DNA of 64,000 nucleotides from Sulfurimonas sp. C5 (lineage in GTDB: Bacteria > Campylobacterota > Campylobacteria > Campylobacterales > Sulfurimonadaceae), in contig NZ_JARXNQ010000003.1 of NCBI RefSeq assembly GCF_029872055.1, positions 1 to 64,000 on the forward strand. Direction: 5' to 3'. A program made the translations under genes and the position numbers. The notes under the pieces are model-generated. The model saw only the letters and a program-made list of their open reading frames with translations, was not told the origin of the DNA and did no database searches. Within the stretch, counting starts at the first letter, position 1. Each line of letters starts with the position of its first letter. Positions 51,852 to 61,659 of this stretch are shown here, in pieces.

Positions 51852-51880
51852 ATTATAGTGCAAAATATTTTTAATGTCAA
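51852..51880 (-). promoter_or_regulatory. Consensus sigma-70 promoter of the tRNA-tuf locus
   Basis: On the minus strand TTGACA (51880-51875) and TATAAT (51857-51852) are separated by exactly 17 bases, a full match to the consensus. The start point would be near 51845, about ten bases before tRNA-Thr(TGT). It likely drives the tRNA genes and perhaps tuf and beyond. Confidence 0.85.
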
Positions 51881-51890
51881 GAGTTTTGAA

Positions 51891-53810
51891 TCAAAATTGT
51901 AAAATTTCCCCATCTTTTACTAAAATAGGTTCATAATCACCCTCATATTCCTCTATTTCTTGTGCTATTTCTAAAATAAAACTTGGTTTTATATGGTTAA
52001 TATAAAGTTGAAAATCTTTTCTTTTTACCGTTTTTAATTGCTCAAATAACATTTTCGGAGTTAAATGCTTACTATTTTTCGCCAACTCTTCTAAATGGTT
52101 TGGAAATGAACACTCTATTACTACCGACTTAATAGTAGTGTCCTTTTCAATTTCTAAGATCGCATTATCTATATTACAAGTATCCGCAGTAATCAAAATA
52201 GCCCCGTCGCCTCTTTTATAAATATAACCGCAGCTTGAATCCGTATGATCTGTTTTAAATGCTTTAATAGATTCATTTTGAGATATCTGATACTCTTTAT
52301 CTAGTTCTATCTCAGTATATTTAACTACCATCTCATTATTCGGTAATTGTATTTTTGAAAAATCAGGCCATACCTCATCATTTAAAAAATGTTTTTTAAT
52401 AGCATCTATCGTCCCTTTTGTTCCCAGTATATTAATAGTATCTTTTCTAATGCCGAAGTAGTTATCTATAATATATGCGATATCCACTATATGATCAAGA
52501 TGCTGATGTGTAAGCCATATATTTTTTACATGGATCGATTCTTCACCTAATGATTCAAGCAGATTACCTGCATCAATCACATCTGTCTTGTTTAATGAAA
52601 ACGAAGTAGTACCGAATCCTTTTGCTTTGGTTCCGTAAGCACCAAGTACTTTTATATTTCTTGTTTGAAGGATCTTCTCCTCTTCATATTTATATTCATC
52701 TTTAAAAGTTTCACGAATTGCATAAAACTCTTCGAGATTTTCAAAAAATATATCTACCAGCTTAGGATCGAAATGCTCCCCTCTCTCCTCTTTAAACAGA
52801 TCAAGTATCCTTTGATCATCCCATGCTTTTTTATAAACTCTATCGCTTCCTAGTGCATCAAACACATCTGCTAAAGCAGTAATACGCCCATATATATGAA
52901 TGCCCTCACCCTTTATAGCTCTCGGATACCCTGTACCGTTATATTTTTCATGATGCTCATACGCAACAATTGCTGCTGCTTTTAAAAGTGTTCGCTCAGA
53001 GTTTTTCAAGATATCGTACCCAAGTTTTGCATGGGTATCCATTATTTTTCTTTCTTCTTCGTTAAAGCGTCCGTTTTTATTGAGAATATGATCAGGAATT
53101 GCCACTTTTCCTATATCGTGCATAGGGCTTGCTTGCTTTAGGAGTTCTGCTTCTGCTTCTTCAAGTCCATATTTTAATGCTAAAAGTTTTGAATACTCCG
53201 CAACGCGTTTTACGTGATTGCCTGTCTCTTTAGAACGACTCTCTCCAACGGCACCCATTGTAAATACAACTTCTCTTTGAGTATCTTCAATCTCGGCTGT
53301 CAATTTTGCAGATACGATTGTCTCTGCTGCATAAGTGGTTGCAAGCGTTAACCTTTCCATATCTCTTTGATCAAAAACACCGCCATTACCTTGACGGTTG
53401 ATCACTTGAAAAGCACCGATAACATTTTCGTTTCGGTCATACATCGGTATAACCATCATTGATGTTGTTTTATAGCCGGTTTGTTGATCTATATATCTGT
53501 TAAAACGTTTATCTTGATATACATCATCAATTATGTAACGTGTACCGTTTACAATTGACTCACCTATAATTCCTGAGTTGATAGGTATCTCAATAGGTTC
53601 TATCCCTTGTGCTACTTTTGTATGGATCGTTTTTTTATTATCACTAACTATCCAGACACTACATCGATCAGCACCGCTCAATGCTTTTCCCATGCCTGCA
53701 AGCAGTTCTATCACCTCATCATATTCTCTTCTCGATGAGACTTCTGCTAAATAAACAAAAATAATTTCCAATAGCTCAGTAGCACCTAATGAGCCTATTT
53801 CACTCTTCAT
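51891..53810 (-). CDS. GAF-HD-GYP protein fused to a class II cyclic-nucleotide phosphodiesterase-like domain
   Basis: This 639-residue protein has a GAF sensor domain (about 20-170), a c-di-GMP phosphodiesterase HD-GYP domain (HDIGK His231-Asp232, HHEKYNGTGYP 286-296) and a metallo-beta-lactamase-fold domain (about 385-639). In the last, THQHLDH (His435, His437, Asp439, His440), His522, Asp543 and His606 supply all expected metal ligands; with ADTCN and IECSFPN it resembles class II cAMP phosphodiesterases, though an RNase Z-like enzyme is possible. No transmembrane helix is seen. The gene follows the CHASE2 cyclase gene after 31 bases and has GGAG before its ATG. The fusion could link c-di-GMP and cAMP breakdown; this is inference. 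Confidence 0.85.
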   Translation of the reverse strand: MKSEIGSLGATELLEIIFVYLAEVSSRREYDEVIELLAGMGKALSGADRCSVWIVSDNKKTIHTKVAQGIEPIEIPINSGIIGESIVNGTRYIIDDVYQDKRFNRYIDQQTGYKTTSMMVIPMYDRNENVIGAFQVINRQGNGGVFDQRDMERLTLATTYAAETIVSAKLTAEIEDTQREVVFTMGAVGESRSKETGNHVKRVAEYSKLLALKYGLEEAEAELLKQASPMHDIGKVAIPDHILNKNGRFNEEERKIMDTHAKLGYDILKNSERTLLKAAAIVAYEHHEKYNGTGYPRAIKGEGIHIYGRITALADVFDALGSDRVYKKAWDDQRILDLFKEERGEHFDPKLVDIFFENLEEFYAIRETFKDEYKYEEEKILQTRNIKVLGAYGTKAKGFGTTSFSLNKTDVIDAGNLLESLGEESIHVKNIWLTHQHLDHIVDIAYIIDNYFGIRKDTINILGTKGTIDAIKKHFLNDEVWPDFSKIQLPNNEMVVKYTEIELDKEYQISQNESIKAFKTDHTDSSCGYIYKRGDGAILITADTCNIDNAILEIEKDTTIKSVVIECSFPNHLEELAKNSKHLTPKMLFEQLKTVKRKDFQLYINHIKPSFILEIAQEIEEYEGDYEPILVKDGEILQF

Positions 53811-53831
53811 TTTAACTCCATTATGGCAATT

Positions 53832-53837
53832 ATTATA
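53832..53837 (-). promoter_or_regulatory. -10 box before the GAF-HD-GYP gene
   Basis: TATAAT on the minus strand lies 21 bases before the ATG at 53810, in the short gap after the cyclase gene. It allows expression separate from the cyclase. Confidence 0.4.
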
Positions 53838-53841
53838 GCAT

Positions 53842-55716
53842 TTATTTATGAGATATTAGTTGATAAACCCTTACCTCTTCTTTTTTCCCTTTTATGGGTG
53901 TAAAACCTAAGTCTTTACACTCAAAATCCTCTTTTACAAGTTCGTAGGTATAGCTTGAGATAATGATCTCCACTCCAAACTCTTTTGTTTTAGATTCCAG
54001 TCTTGATGCAAGGTTTACGCTATCACCTATAATAGTATAGTTAAACCTTTTTATTGCCCCCATATTTCCGACAACCACTTCACCTGTATTGATTCCTATA
54101 CCTATATGTATCGGCGCTATCCCCTCTTTTTCAAATTCTTGATTTAAAATATTGAGCTTATTTATCATCTCTAGTGCACAAGTACAAGCAGCTTTTGCAT
54201 GCTCTTCTACATCTATCGGTGCATTGAAAAATGCCATAACGGCATCACCGATATATTTATCAAGCATCCCTTTATTATCCATAACCGCCTCAGTCATTGG
54301 CGTAAAATATCTGTTTAAGAGTTTAATGAGTTGCTGCGGATCGTCCATCTCTTCTGAGAGAGTAGTAAAATTACGAATATCGCTAAACAAAATACTCAGC
54401 TCTTTTTTCTCTCCGCCGAGTTCCAACCCTTTTTTACTATGTACCAGTTTCTCCAATAACTCTTTTGAAAGATAACTAGAGAAAGCTTTTTTAATAAAGC
54501 GTGTATCTTTTTCTTGAATATAAAAGATATTAAACTCTATCAAGGCGACATTCAAACCTAATGCAATAAGAGGGTAAAACATATCTATATATAAAGAATT
54601 ATAAGAAAATAGCGTTTTTGCAACTGCGAAAAGAAACAGGTAAACACCTATATAGGTAAATATTCTTACATAGAGTTTCTTGATAAAAACACTCACTAGA
54701 AAAACACTCAATACTGTCAAGATAGTCATTAGATAGTTAAGCAGAGGAAACTCTTTTATCAGTTCATCGTTTAAAAAGTTTGAAAGAAATGTAGCGTGCA
54801 AATACACTCCATACATATTTCCCATTGGAGTTGCAACGACATCTCCTATCCCCATCTCTGTGACACCAAAAAGTACTATTTTCTTTTGAAGATAGGAACT
54901 TTTTATCTTCCCTTTATAAAGGTCTACGAATGAAATCGTTTTATATGCCTGCTTGTCATAAAAGTTAAGTCGTACAAAACCCAAATCATTCACAGAAATT
55001 TTTTGCTTACCAAGTGTCAGTGTATTTGCCGCTTTGCGATCAAGATCGCTATTAAACTTCAGACGTAAACTCTGCAGAGCTAAAGAGGGATACAGAGAAT
55101 TCTGCAGATAAAATGCCGTGGGATACCATCTATAGAGTTGATCACTTGCCGTTACGGTTGTAAATGCACCTTGCATCGTACATGAGTCTAGAATCGGTTC
55201 TACATTTAATTCGGCAAATTTCGCATTTAGAAAATGTTCATCTTTTTGTAGTTTTGACTGCAGAAGGTCAAGACTTGAATTTTGCAATGTATCAAGTTCT
55301 TGGGGAGTTAGATGCTGTGTAGCTTTCTCTCTTAAAAAAAATCCACATACACTATTGTTTAAAGTTTCTATTGCCGTCGCTAATTTCTGATCTGCATCGC
55401 TGGATTCCGAAAACACCATATCCAGTGCGACTACATCGGCACTTTGCAGTTTTTCTAATCCTTGTGCCAAAATATCTCTATCCCACGGCCAACGACCGAA
55501 ATAGTTGATACTTTTTTCATCCACTGCCACTATGACGACATCAGGATTGATTGTTTTTGTTTGAAAAGCGAAATTGGTATCATTAAACTTTTCGGCAAAA
55601 GAGTCTAAAAATTCAAATTTTTCATACTCTAATAGTAAAATCAACAGCAGTGAGAAAACTGCTAATATACTAGTTCTTATCAAATAACTTTTCAAAATAT
55701 TTAAACTCGTCTGCAT
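53842..55716 (-). CDS. CHASE2-domain class III adenylate cyclase
   Basis: This 624-residue membrane enzyme has an N-terminal helix (about 12-29), a periplasmic CHASE2 sensor domain (about 35-320), three transmembrane helices (about 325-400) and a class III cyclase domain (about 435-600). Metal-binding Asp446 (FSDIRNF) and Asp491 (YIGDAV) are present. Base-selecting Lys487 and Thr561 (NYTIIGDSVN) indicate ATP, and Asn568/Arg572 are the transition-state residues, so it should make cAMP. The ATG at 55716 overlaps the FecR-like gene by 47 bases and lacks a ribosome site, implying coupled translation. It probably senses a periplasmic signal, perhaps through the FecR-domain protein. Confidence 0.9.
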   Translation of the reverse strand: MQTSLNILKSYLIRTSILAVFSLLLILLLEYEKFEFLDSFAEKFNDTNFAFQTKTINPDVVIVAVDEKSINYFGRWPWDRDILAQGLEKLQSADVVALDMVFSESSDADQKLATAIETLNNSVCGFFLREKATQHLTPQELDTLQNSSLDLLQSKLQKDEHFLNAKFAELNVEPILDSCTMQGAFTTVTASDQLYRWYPTAFYLQNSLYPSLALQSLRLKFNSDLDRKAANTLTLGKQKISVNDLGFVRLNFYDKQAYKTISFVDLYKGKIKSSYLQKKIVLFGVTEMGIGDVVATPMGNMYGVYLHATFLSNFLNDELIKEFPLLNYLMTILTVLSVFLVSVFIKKLYVRIFTYIGVYLFLFAVAKTLFSYNSLYIDMFYPLIALGLNVALIEFNIFYIQEKDTRFIKKAFSSYLSKELLEKLVHSKKGLELGGEKKELSILFSDIRNFTTLSEEMDDPQQLIKLLNRYFTPMTEAVMDNKGMLDKYIGDAVMAFFNAPIDVEEHAKAACTCALEMINKLNILNQEFEKEGIAPIHIGIGINTGEVVVGNMGAIKRFNYTIIGDSVNLASRLESKTKEFGVEIIISSYTYELVKEDFECKDLGFTPIKGKKEEVRVYQLISHK

Positions 55717-56362
55717 CGTTTTGATCGAAACTGTCTTCTTTAACTATATTATCCTCAAAACTTACTTTGTTTTGCTGCTGCAGGTCAAAAGCTTGAGTTT
55801 TTACCGCTTTTTCATATTTTTCGAATGCTGCTTTATACTCATCAAAGCCCTGCTGTTGTTTTGCTTTAAAATCTTCAAATTCTGCATTTATTTTTTTTCT
55901 ATAAAGTTCAAACTCCTCTTTAATACTATTAATTCCGACTACACCCTCTTGTAATAAAAGCTCTTTTTGTTCATCTGCTTTTACAATAAAGGTTGTCCCT
56001 TTAATTCCGATGATCGCAAAATTTGTCTCTACTTTTAAAGCATCTTTCGTTTTTTTAGAAGTTATTTTGTAATACACTTTTCCGTTTTCTTGCTTGAGAT
56101 CTACTCCGCTGATAAAACGTACCATCGAATCAGTATCGACAATCAATGTCGAATTATCCTCTAACTTGATTTTTGCACAACCATCTTCGTAAGTGCTTAA
56201 GATATCCCCCTCTTGAATCTGATATCCGGCAAGCACTTTTATCTTTTTAATACTGTTTTGCGGTTTTACTTTTACATTTCCTTGAAGTTCCTCAACAGTT
56301 CCAATCACACTAGCGTAAATATATGTACAACTCGCTATAATAAGCATTAAAAACAGTTTCAC
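55670..56362 (-). CDS. Periplasmic FecR-domain protein
   Basis: This 230-residue protein has a signal peptide (about 1-17), a FecR domain (about 20-130: GTVEELQGNVKVK, QIQEGDILSTYEDGCAKIKL, FAIIGIKGTTFIVKA) and a C-terminal charged coiled coil (about 140-215). FecR domains sense and relay envelope signals. There is no sigma factor gene here and no anti-sigma segment; the partner is the CHASE2 cyclase gene it overlaps. The start is a GTG at 56362 with AAAGG upstream. FecR beside a CHASE2 cyclase is an arrangement I recall in other proteobacteria. Confidence 0.85.
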   Translation of the reverse strand: MKLFLMLIIASCTYIYASVIGTVEELQGNVKVKPQNSIKKIKVLAGYQIQEGDILSTYEDGCAKIKLEDNSTLIVDTDSMVRFISGVDLKQENGKVYYKITSKKTKDALKVETNFAIIGIKGTTFIVKADEQKELLLQEGVVGINSIKEEFELYRKKINAEFEDFKAKQQQGFDEYKAAFEKYEKAVKTQAFDLQQQNKVSFEDNIVKEDSFDQNDADEFKYFEKLFDKN

Positions 56363-56389: not shown

Positions 56390-56395
56390 ATTATA
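56390..56395 (-). promoter_or_regulatory. -10 box of the FecR-cyclase operon
   Basis: TATAAT on the minus strand lies 27 bases before the GTG of the FecR-domain gene, giving a leader of about 20 bases with an AAAGG ribosome site. The divergent gene is yaaA. Confidence 0.5.
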
Positions 56396-56417
56396 TCATG
56401 TTATTAAAAAAAGGGAG

Positions 56418-59217: not shown

Positions 59218-61659
59218 GTGAAATTCAAAAAAACAGCTCAGATAATTGACCTTTTGATACACAATAAAGAAAAGATAATTGATGCTTGGTTAAACTCTAA
59301 AGATACCAGCATTATTTTAAATGCTTACGGCATTGAAATTGATGAGTTTAGAAGTCTTTTTGCGACCCTATTATTTGATTGTTATCTCGATCAAATATTA
59401 GAAAAAACCGATCTTGAAAATTGTACTATTATCCCTGCTTACATAAAATTGATGCTAAAGCATCACGCTACACCTGATAAAATTTTTTTACTGCCTCTTG
59501 AACTTGAAAACTCTATACTCAAATCTTTTTTTGCAAACAATGTTTCAGACTATGAAATTTATATAGAGATAAACCAGCTTACAAAATATACTCTTAAAGC
59601 AACTCTTACAGAATTTCAAAAGATTTTTAATGAACAAGAACAAGAAAATATTTATCACAATGCCATCCTTGAAACAACAAATGACGGTTATTGGATGGCA
59701 GATACAGAGGGGAACTTTTTAGAAGTCAACGCCTCTTACAGTAAAATGTCAGGGTACTCTATAGACGAATTGTTATCTATGCATATACAAGCTGTTGAAG
59801 CTATAGAGTCTGAAGAAGAAACCAAGAAACATATTGAACATATCATTAAATATGGCAATGAAACATTTGAGACGACACATATTAAAAAAAATGGGGAGAG
59901 ATACCCCGTAGAAGTATCGGTTAGTTTTACAGAAATAGACGGGGGACGTTTTTTTGTTTTGTTACGTGACATAAGTGAACGCAAACAAGCTGAAAACGAA
60001 CTGCTTCTCTCTTCCAAAGTGTTTTCAAATATGACTGACGGTGTACTTATTACAGATTCAAAGCAACATATCTTAAAATTCAATGACAGTTTTTCTAAAA
60101 TCACCGGTTATACAGAGAAGGAACTTCTTGGAAAAACACCGAATCTTTTAAGTTCCGGTTGGCACGATAAAGAGTTTTACAAACGGATGTGGGCAGACAT
60201 AAACACTTACGGAAGTTGGCAAGGTGAGATTGTTGATCGTAAAAAAAACGGGGAAACATATATATCAGAGAGCTCTATAATTGCTGTAAAACAAAATGAT
60301 GAGATCATGAACTACATTGCCATATCCAGTGATGTTACACATAGAAAAGAGCAAGAGAAAATAATTAACAATTTGGCCTATTATGATGCATTAACAAAAC
60401 TGCCAAATAAAACATTGTTTCAAGAAAGGCTTGAACACTATATCAGTATTGCAAAAAGACATCATACACAGATCGCACTCTTTTTTATCGATCTGGATAA
60501 TTTCAAAAACATTAACGACACCTTAGGTCACTTAATGGGTGATCAATTCTTAAAAGATGCTGCTTTAAGAATAAAAAGTATCCTTAGAGAGGAAGATACA
60601 CTGGGAAGGTTTGGCGGTGATGAGTTTGCCATTATAATTCAAGACTGGCACTCAGTAAGTAGTTTGGGAGTCTTGGCACAAAAAATTGTAGATATATTTA
60701 AACAGCCATTTTTACTAAATAATACAGAGTTTTTTTCCGGTGTAAGTATAGGGATTAGCATATATCCCGATGATGCAAAAACTTATGATGAGATGATACG
60801 TTTAGCCGATACAGCTATGTATCACGTTAAACGTCACGGGAAAAACGGTTATGAGTTTTTTTCTGCATCTATGAATAAATCTATTGCCGAAAAAATGAAA
60901 ATAGAGAATGCCTTGCACACTGCATTGGAAAACAATGAGTTTCATCTTACGTATCAGCCTAAAGTCAATATAGAAACAAATACTGTTTACGGGATGGAAG
61001 CACTCATAAGATGGATTCATCCGGAACTTGGCTTTATCGGACCGGAGCTGTTTATACCTAAGGCTGAAGATAACGGTCAAATCTACAACATAGGACTATG
61101 GGTTATTAGACAAGCTCTTGAAGATACAAAAAAATTACATGACTCAGGTTATGATGATCTTGAAGTATCTATTAACATCTCCAGTAGACAATTAGAACAA
61201 AGTTATTTTTTAAAAGACTTGATATCGATAGTTAATGATATTGGACTAGCAAAAGAGTTTATAGACTTAGAAATAACAGAGACACAAGTTATGAACAATA
61301 TTGACTCTTCCCTAGAGATGCTGCGTAAAATCAGTGCCCTGGGTATTAAACTTTCTATTGATGATTTTGGAACAGGGTATTCATCATTGAGTTACCTAAA
61401 ACAACTTCCTGCAAATACGATTAAAATCGATAAAAGTTTCGTTCTTGATATAGATAAAGATGAAGATGACAAAGCTATTGTAGCATCAATCATTGCGTTA
61501 TCTAAATCTCTAAACAGAAAAGTGGTTGCCGAAGGCTCAGAAACAAAAGAGCATATTGAAATACTTAGAGAACTTGGCGTTAGTCAAGTACAAGGTTATT
61601 ATTATTCAAAACCAATTAAACTGGATGAGTTTGAACAATTTTTAAAAGAGTTCCATTAA
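59218..61659 (+). CDS. PAS-PAS-GGDEF-EAL cyclic-di-GMP signalling protein with helical N-terminal sensor
   Basis: This 813-residue protein has an all-helical N-terminal region (about 1-140, KIIDAWLNSK resembling RsbR-type N-domains), two PAS domains (about 142-255 and 262-378), GGDEF (FGGDEF near 463, with an REED inhibitory site before it) and EAL (GMEALIRW near 593, DDFGTGYSSL). Both catalytic motifs look intact. No transmembrane helix is seen. The start is a GTG at 59218 with a weak TTAGG upstream. It shares its GGDEF-EAL half with the protein at 6177-8642 but has a different sensor. Confidence 0.93.
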   Translation: MKFKKTAQIIDLLIHNKEKIIDAWLNSKDTSIILNAYGIEIDEFRSLFATLLFDCYLDQILEKTDLENCTIIPAYIKLMLKHHATPDKIFLLPLELENSILKSFFANNVSDYEIYIEINQLTKYTLKATLTEFQKIFNEQEQENIYHNAILETTNDGYWMADTEGNFLEVNASYSKMSGYSIDELLSMHIQAVEAIESEEETKKHIEHIIKYGNETFETTHIKKNGERYPVEVSVSFTEIDGGRFFVLLRDISERKQAENELLLSSKVFSNMTDGVLITDSKQHILKFNDSFSKITGYTEKELLGKTPNLLSSGWHDKEFYKRMWADINTYGSWQGEIVDRKKNGETYISESSIIAVKQNDEIMNYIAISSDVTHRKEQEKIINNLAYYDALTKLPNKTLFQERLEHYISIAKRHHTQIALFFIDLDNFKNINDTLGHLMGDQFLKDAALRIKSILREEDTLGRFGGDEFAIIIQDWHSVSSLGVLAQKIVDIFKQPFLLNNTEFFSGVSIGISIYPDDAKTYDEMIRLADTAMYHVKRHGKNGYEFFSASMNKSIAEKMKIENALHTALENNEFHLTYQPKVNIETNTVYGMEALIRWIHPELGFIGPELFIPKAEDNGQIYNIGLWVIRQALEDTKKLHDSGYDDLEVSINISSRQLEQSYFLKDLISIVNDIGLAKEFIDLEITETQVMNNIDSSLEMLRKISALGIKLSIDDFGTGYSSLSYLKQLPANTIKIDKSFVLDIDKDEDDKAIVASIIALSKSLNRKVVAEGSETKEHIEILRELGVSQVQGYYYSKPIKLDEFEQFLKEFH

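Follow-up and report, generated by a model that had tools for sequence, protein, structure and literature searches.

A FecR, CHASE2 adenylate cyclase and GAF-HD-GYP-phosphodiesterase locus of Sulfurimonas sp. C5: a candidate module for cAMP and c-di-GMP turnover

The adenylate cyclases of Campylobacterota were reported to carry CHASE2 domains and to be encoded mostly in clusters that also encode FecR-domain and TPR proteins along with a cAMP phosphodiesterase (PMC9239204; mBio 2022;13:e00764-22). The original prediction that no such pathway had been described in Campylobacterota did not stand, as this 2022 paper reports the cluster. Similar to that cluster, the locus of Sulfurimonas sp. C5 in this study combines a CHASE2 cyclase, a predicted cAMP phosphodiesterase and FecR in the same phylum. 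Different from it, the locus is without a TPR gene, and its phosphodiesterase domain is fused to GAF-HD-GYP, a fusion that the paper's main text does not mention. As far as our literature search shows, cAMP signalling of free-living Campylobacterota is known from bioinformatic surveys only.

NsrA of S. meliloti, as described in PMC13001267, was the only experimental precedent found in the literature in which CHASE2 cyclases are driven by a protein of the envelope. NsrA is an outer-membrane beta-barrel protein that feeds the CHASE2 cyclases CyaD1, CyaD2 and CyaK, and the receptor in this NsrA-CyaD1/CyaD2/CyaK-Clr pathway is a CRP-type regulator (PMC13001267). Activation of a CHASE2 cyclase via another envelope protein would be shared with the locus of Sulfurimonas sp. 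C5. Different from the S. meliloti pathway, however, this locus has FecR and a dedicated fused phosphodiesterase, and a CRP-type pocket was not found in its genome.

The window, which is the whole stretch of 64,000 nucleotides analysed here, contains at 51891-56362 on the minus strand three open reading frames in series, encoding a FecR-domain protein (55670..56362, 230 aa, GTG start), a CHASE2 class III adenylate cyclase (53842..55716, 624 aa, with ATG 55716 taken as its start) and a GAF-HD-GYP-metallo-beta-lactamase (MBL) fusion protein (51891..53810, 639 aa). The three neighbouring minus-strand genes and their domains agreed with the original prediction in their coordinates, and all domains scored above the curated Pfam cut-offs. 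The predicted gap of 31 bases between the cyclase and fusion genes was also correct, and a Shine-Dalgarno-like GGAG lies immediately 5' of the ATG of the fusion gene. The overlap of 47 bases proposed for the FecR and cyclase genes holds only if the cyclase starts at ATG 55716. A start at TTG 55695, which would shorten the overlap to 26 bases, is at least as likely, because the aligned relatives begin about 7 residues later. A candidate extended -10 promoter element, TGATATAAT (56390..56398, minus strand), was read straight from the sequence 28 bases upstream of the FecR start, inside the 55-base divergent gap to yaaA; the consensus promoter scan did not include it in its site list. In addition, a perfect sigma-70 promoter match (TTGACA-17-TATAAT, 51852-51880, minus strand) stands right behind the end of the fusion gene and ahead of tRNA genes and tuf.

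The locus is best read as a self-contained cAMP signalling module that includes an off-switch of its own and an arm for c-di-GMP, a reading to which we give a probability of roughly two in three. FecR would be exported and would interact with, or signal to, the CHASE2 domain that the membrane cyclase has in the periplasm, and the ATP-type catalytic domain of this cyclase with the Lys/Thr pair would make cAMP. The soluble fusion protein would use its class II phosphodiesterase domain to remove cAMP and its HD-GYP domain to remove c-di-GMP, and the GAF domain would control these activities. Sequence and comparative genomics showed the identities of the domains, the intact catalytic residues and a linkage of the cyclase with class II phosphodiesterase and GAF-HD-GYP that is conserved; the FecR-to-CHASE2 signalling, the substrates and the direction of control are what we infer.

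The cyclase contained a CHASE2 domain (aa 24-338, 54703-55647, minus strand; PF05226, 157 bits, 7.5e-46), membrane segments at about aa 325-400 and a class III adenylate cyclase domain (aa 437-620, 53857-54408, minus strand; PF00211, 111 bits, 8e-32). Metal-binding Asp446 and Asp490 were present, as were the transition-state residues Asn568 and Arg572 of NLASR (568-572). Lys487 and Thr561 had been correctly named as ATP-type residues, and this Lys/Thr purine pair was kept in 31 of 31 aligned homologues. Among class III cyclases, a Lys/Thr pair is the mark of the ATP-using enzymes of the IIIb kind. The residues present support a predicted ATP-type CHASE2 class III adenylate cyclase of class IIIb type, which is also the sole PF00211 protein of the genome. 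Full-length relatives carry a conserved C-terminal tail of about 60 residues with WGVxKMTTK at its end, which this cyclase lacks (gene end at 53842); frames of comparably short length were also found in genomes G320 and G308. Some PF00211 proteins of the phylum, such as the one of 483 aa in G009, matched the query in its cyclase part alone. Moreover, two CHASE2-cyclase paralogues (L094:6248-8404 and L095:5753-7927) lacked the transition-state Arg and are probably inactive; the FecR genes next to them encode 139-152 aa and stop where the FecR domain does.

The MBL domain of the fusion protein (aa 385-639, 51894..52658, minus strand) matched PF02112 (PDEase_II) with 51.5 bits and an E-value of 1.1e-13 against a gathering cut-off of 23.7, and the MBLs of relatives scored 30-52 bits. 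Its motifs were HQHLDH at 435, of the HXHLDH type defined for class II phosphodiesterases (PMC9293780), DHTDSSCG at 521, ADT at 542, SKHLTP at 580 and NHIKP at 605, and its metal ligands were invariant in 28 homologues. When a profile of these 28 homologues was compared with solved structures, yeast Pde1 (4ojv) ranked top with an E-value of 6.4e-14, followed by RNase Z with 5.7e-9; the domain and Pde1 shared the stretch GL..TI..L.KH.FND.IWPD. The predicted structure of the domain (pLDDT 95.8) was closest to Pde1 in VIA-align (Z 27.2, rmsd 2.2 over 249 residues). Because the Z scores of RNase Z ZipD (26.2), YhfI (25.9) and Apyc1 (24.6) were all near that of Pde1 and Foldseek ranked YhfI first, the fold by itself does not decide the identity of the domain. 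The sequence speaks in favour of a class II cAMP phosphodiesterase, the resemblance originally predicted, with the PF02112 cut-off passed and Pde1 as the best sequence relative.

Similarity of fold would also suit an RNase Z or another RNA-processing enzyme, and the MBL domain was the best RNase Z match of the genome, in which a whole-genome profile search (G000) found nothing that scored above the curated threshold for RNase Z. This match was weak, however: its NCBIfam score of 39.6 bits was far under the cut-off of 292.95, while the cut-off for class II phosphodiesterases was passed. In addition, the distribution of the MBL was patchy, as many other members of the genus lack it, and the MBL is fused to or adjoins messenger enzymes. 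RNase Z was rejected on these scores, and an RNA-processing role is highly improbable.

Genomes had been proposed to be searched for co-occurrence of the genes. In 249 Campylobacterota genomes, in which a cyclase was counted when its PF00211 match was strong, 33 had such a cyclase and 39 an MBL of the fusion type. Both were found in 32 genomes, the cyclase only in 1, the MBL only in 7 and neither in 209, so that 32 of 33 clear-cyclase genomes possess the MBL (Fisher p 2e-32, uncorrected for phylogeny). The two genes were no more than 8 kb apart in 21 of the 32 genomes having both. Similarly, 60 of 64 cyclase-bearing genomes among 151 Sulfurimonadaceae had the MBL (p 2e-8, with no correction for shared ancestry). 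Linked cyclase/MBL loci across the phylum and outside it showed that the module is conserved well beyond the strain.

The MBL was also found in genomes without a PF00211 cyclase over the cut-off, namely 7 of 39 MBL-bearing genomes of the phylum and 46 of 106 of the Sulfurimonadaceae. Several Sulfurimonas (L102-L105) kept the MBL alone at the site between yaaA and tuf that the locus of the window also occupies, where FecR, the cyclase and GAF-HD-GYP are gone. A class IV (CYTH) cyclase was rejected as the explanation, since none was found in ten tested genomes that have the MBL without a class III cyclase. In such genomes, either cAMP may come from elsewhere or the MBL may have a second substrate. 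These counts, together with the missing CYTH cyclases, would fit a broad phosphodiesterase of cyclic nucleotides or other substrates (2',3'-cNMP, cCMP/cUMP, cGMP), for which the cAMP of its neighbour is not the main job and to which the cyclase is merely joined. The fold near Apyc1 and the hydrolysis of several cyclic nucleotides by Rv1339, a related atypical class II phosphodiesterase (PMC9293780), point in the same direction. However, the MBL is near-obligate in cyclase-bearing genomes and often directly adjacent to the cyclase, also in other phyla, and by sequence it is closest to Pde1, an enzyme of cAMP and cGMP, rather than to RNase Z or PhnP. Furthermore, the solitary MBLs of Sulfurimonas branch within the fused ones in the tree, so that they have the appearance of remnants of a module whose other parts were lost. 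Such a broad role is hence unlikely, and a dedicated cAMP off-switch is the preferred reading.

The HD-GYP domain (aa 191-351, 52758..53240, minus strand) matched PF13487 (HD_5) with 111 bits and 8.6e-32. Its motifs were intact and conserved (HDIGK at 231 and HHE...GTGYP at 286), and the set of metal ligands was full, comprising HDIGK, HHEK, GTGYP and the downstream D of ALADVFDAL. A predicted HD-GYP c-di-GMP phosphodiesterase in the fusion protein is thereby supported. A further c-di-GMP enzyme, a PAS-PAS-GGDEF-EAL protein (59218-61659, plus strand), is encoded in the window at a distance of about 3 kb to the FecR gene.

The arrangement of these domains varied among the loci. The layout of the window, FecR/CHASE2-cyclase/GAF-HD-GYP-MBL, was found alongside three others: FecR/CHASE2-cyclase/GAF-HD-GYP with the MBL as a separate last gene; FecR/CHASE2-cyclase/MBL in which HD-GYP was absent; and FecR/TPR protein/CHASE2-cyclase/MBL-GAF-HD-GYP with the domain order reversed. 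In most loci FecR was beside or near the CHASE2-cyclase. The HD-GYP domain of the reversed proteins usually carried an insertion of about 75 residues or more, and in the trees locus L077 combines a second-kind MBL with a GAF-HD-GYP of the first kind. The MBL also adjoined GAF-HD-GYP as a separate gene, in several phyla and not in Campylobacterota alone. Outside the phylum, Thiomicrospira sp. WB1 (L128) has the full set FecR/TPR/CHASE2-cyclase/MBL-GAF-HD-GYP, and in many betaproteobacterial loci the CHASE2-cyclase is followed directly by the MBL. In Chitinimonas viridis (L170:2549-13775), genes for a CHASE2 protein kinase, PP2C, FHA and CHASE2-cyclase are followed by those for the MBL, a GAF-type II/IV secretion ATPase and GAF-HD-GYP.

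Fusions of the MBL with GAF-HD-GYP thus exist in either domain order and involve two HD-GYP lineages, and fusion probably arose more than once, which speaks for a joint function of the partners. GAF-HD-GYP proteins are very common in these genomes, where similar ones are unlinked, and some loci, such as L071, have the MBL with the CHASE2-cyclase only, as might be expected if GAF and HD-GYP were passengers fused by chance and cAMP and c-di-GMP were functionally unlinked. The occurrence of both domain orders, the two fused HD-GYP lineages and the adjacency of separate genes in several phyla make such a chance association doubtful. The recurrent clustering of cyclase, class II phosphodiesterase and GAF-HD-GYP, in varied orders and several phyla, suggests that the turnover of cAMP and that of c-di-GMP are physically coupled.

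The original prediction had also proposed that a CRP-like cAMP receptor be looked for elsewhere in the genome. None of its five CNB proteins fits, as all were without the Gly-Glu...Arg-Ser/Ala phosphate-binding cassette of the CRP-type cAMP pocket, and a CRP-type receptor in this genome was rejected; a protein with the cassette was present in one relative (G116, L208). The locus is a concrete candidate for the use of cAMP by these bacteria without an evident CRP. The GAF domain of the fusion protein (aa 42-163, 53322..53687, minus strand; PF01590, 46 bits) is of the PDE/CyaB2/PmGH type, and the nearest solved GAF domains were those of PmGH (4mcw, 1.8e-31) and CyaB2 (1ykd, 2.3e-21) as well as PDE5, PDE2 and PDE10. 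In the alignment, N, F and D of its NKFDE motif (NKXnFX3DE) were kept, while R stands in the place of K and M in that of E. The CyaB2 pocket residues R291/T293/I308/D356/N359 (PMC4411481) read R/S/V/D/T when the alignment was inspected by eye. The motif does not discriminate a cAMP receptor, since control GAF-HD-GYP proteins unlinked to any MBL carry the same one. For the c-di-GMP enzymes Bd1971 and Lcd1, an action of cAMP has been reported (PMC6717892). We propose only tentatively, as a rather unlikely extension of the module, that the GAF domain might be a cAMP receptor gating HD-GYP, by which an envelope signal would be relayed from cAMP to c-di-GMP in one cAMP-erasing protein. If true, this relay would be a direct link of two second messengers without a CRP-type regulator.

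The FecR protein, the sole PF04773 match of the genome, possesses a hydrophobic, signal-like N-terminal segment at aa 3-21, a FecR domain at aa 55-142 (55937-56200; 43.4 bits, 4.9e-11, cut-off 24) and a charged, probably helical C-terminal tail, and it aligned with other short FecR homologues. Because of its single N-terminal signal-like segment and the absence of an anti-sigma part, it was rejected as a classical FecR anti-sigma regulator, and no ECF sigma gene was found among the neighbours of this or the related loci. At related loci L083, L072, L077, L114 and L128, some FecR proteins had a C-terminal match to the TbpB_B_D barrel, and the adjoining TPR proteins matched the Slam family (PF04575 or PF24575), which suggests a surface-exposed FecR sensor assembled or exported by a Slam-like translocator. 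The TPR proteins were TPR/SlipAM-like in L083 and L077. No TPR protein or TbpB-like or Slam-like part is present at the locus or in the lineage of Sulfurimonas sp. C5. A loss in this lineage is likely, since L114, whose locus has the same position on the yaaA side, still possesses a TPR gene as well as a FecR that weakly matches the TbpB type. Similar to these loci, an operon of Burkholderia pairs a LysM-FecR protein with a CHASE2 receptor; different from them, its output is a histidine kinase and not a cyclase (PMC5192318).

In the literature searched, no paper was found on a fusion of HD-GYP with an MBL or cAMP phosphodiesterase, and the joining of the enzymes of both messengers in one protein appears to be little described. 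Nor did we find descriptions of the varied architectures of the GAF-HD-GYP fusion, of a Slam/TbpB-like input or of the occurrence in other phyla. Among known proteins, yeast Pde1 (class II, PF02112) shares with the MBL domain the HXHLDH metal motif and the similarity in the WPD region, and was its best match in both profile and VIA-align comparisons. Different from Pde1, the MBL domain is shorter, about 23% identical over the structural alignment and fused to GAF-HD-GYP. Similar to the fusion protein, PmGH (PDB 4mcw) has a GAF-HD-GYP architecture and the closest solved GAF domain, but it is without an MBL, and we know of no link of PmGH to a cyclase. The atypical class II phosphodiesterases Rv1339 and YhfI have the same MBL fold and hydrolyse cyclic nucleotides in bacteria (PMC9293780), an activity that is predicted for the MBL domain; Rv1339 and YhfI are assigned to PF12706, whereas the MBL domain passes PF02112 as well, and its structural Z score to YhfI was about 1.3 below that to Pde1. 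Finally, cAMP and c-di-GMP also meet in one protein in the cAMP-sensing EAL protein Bd1971 and the GAF-GGDEF protein Lcd1 (PMC6717892). However, Bd1971 and Lcd1 sense cAMP without destroying it, whereas the fusion protein of Sulfurimonas sp. C5 holds a predicted cAMP phosphodiesterase in the same chain, with cAMP sensing as a putative further function.
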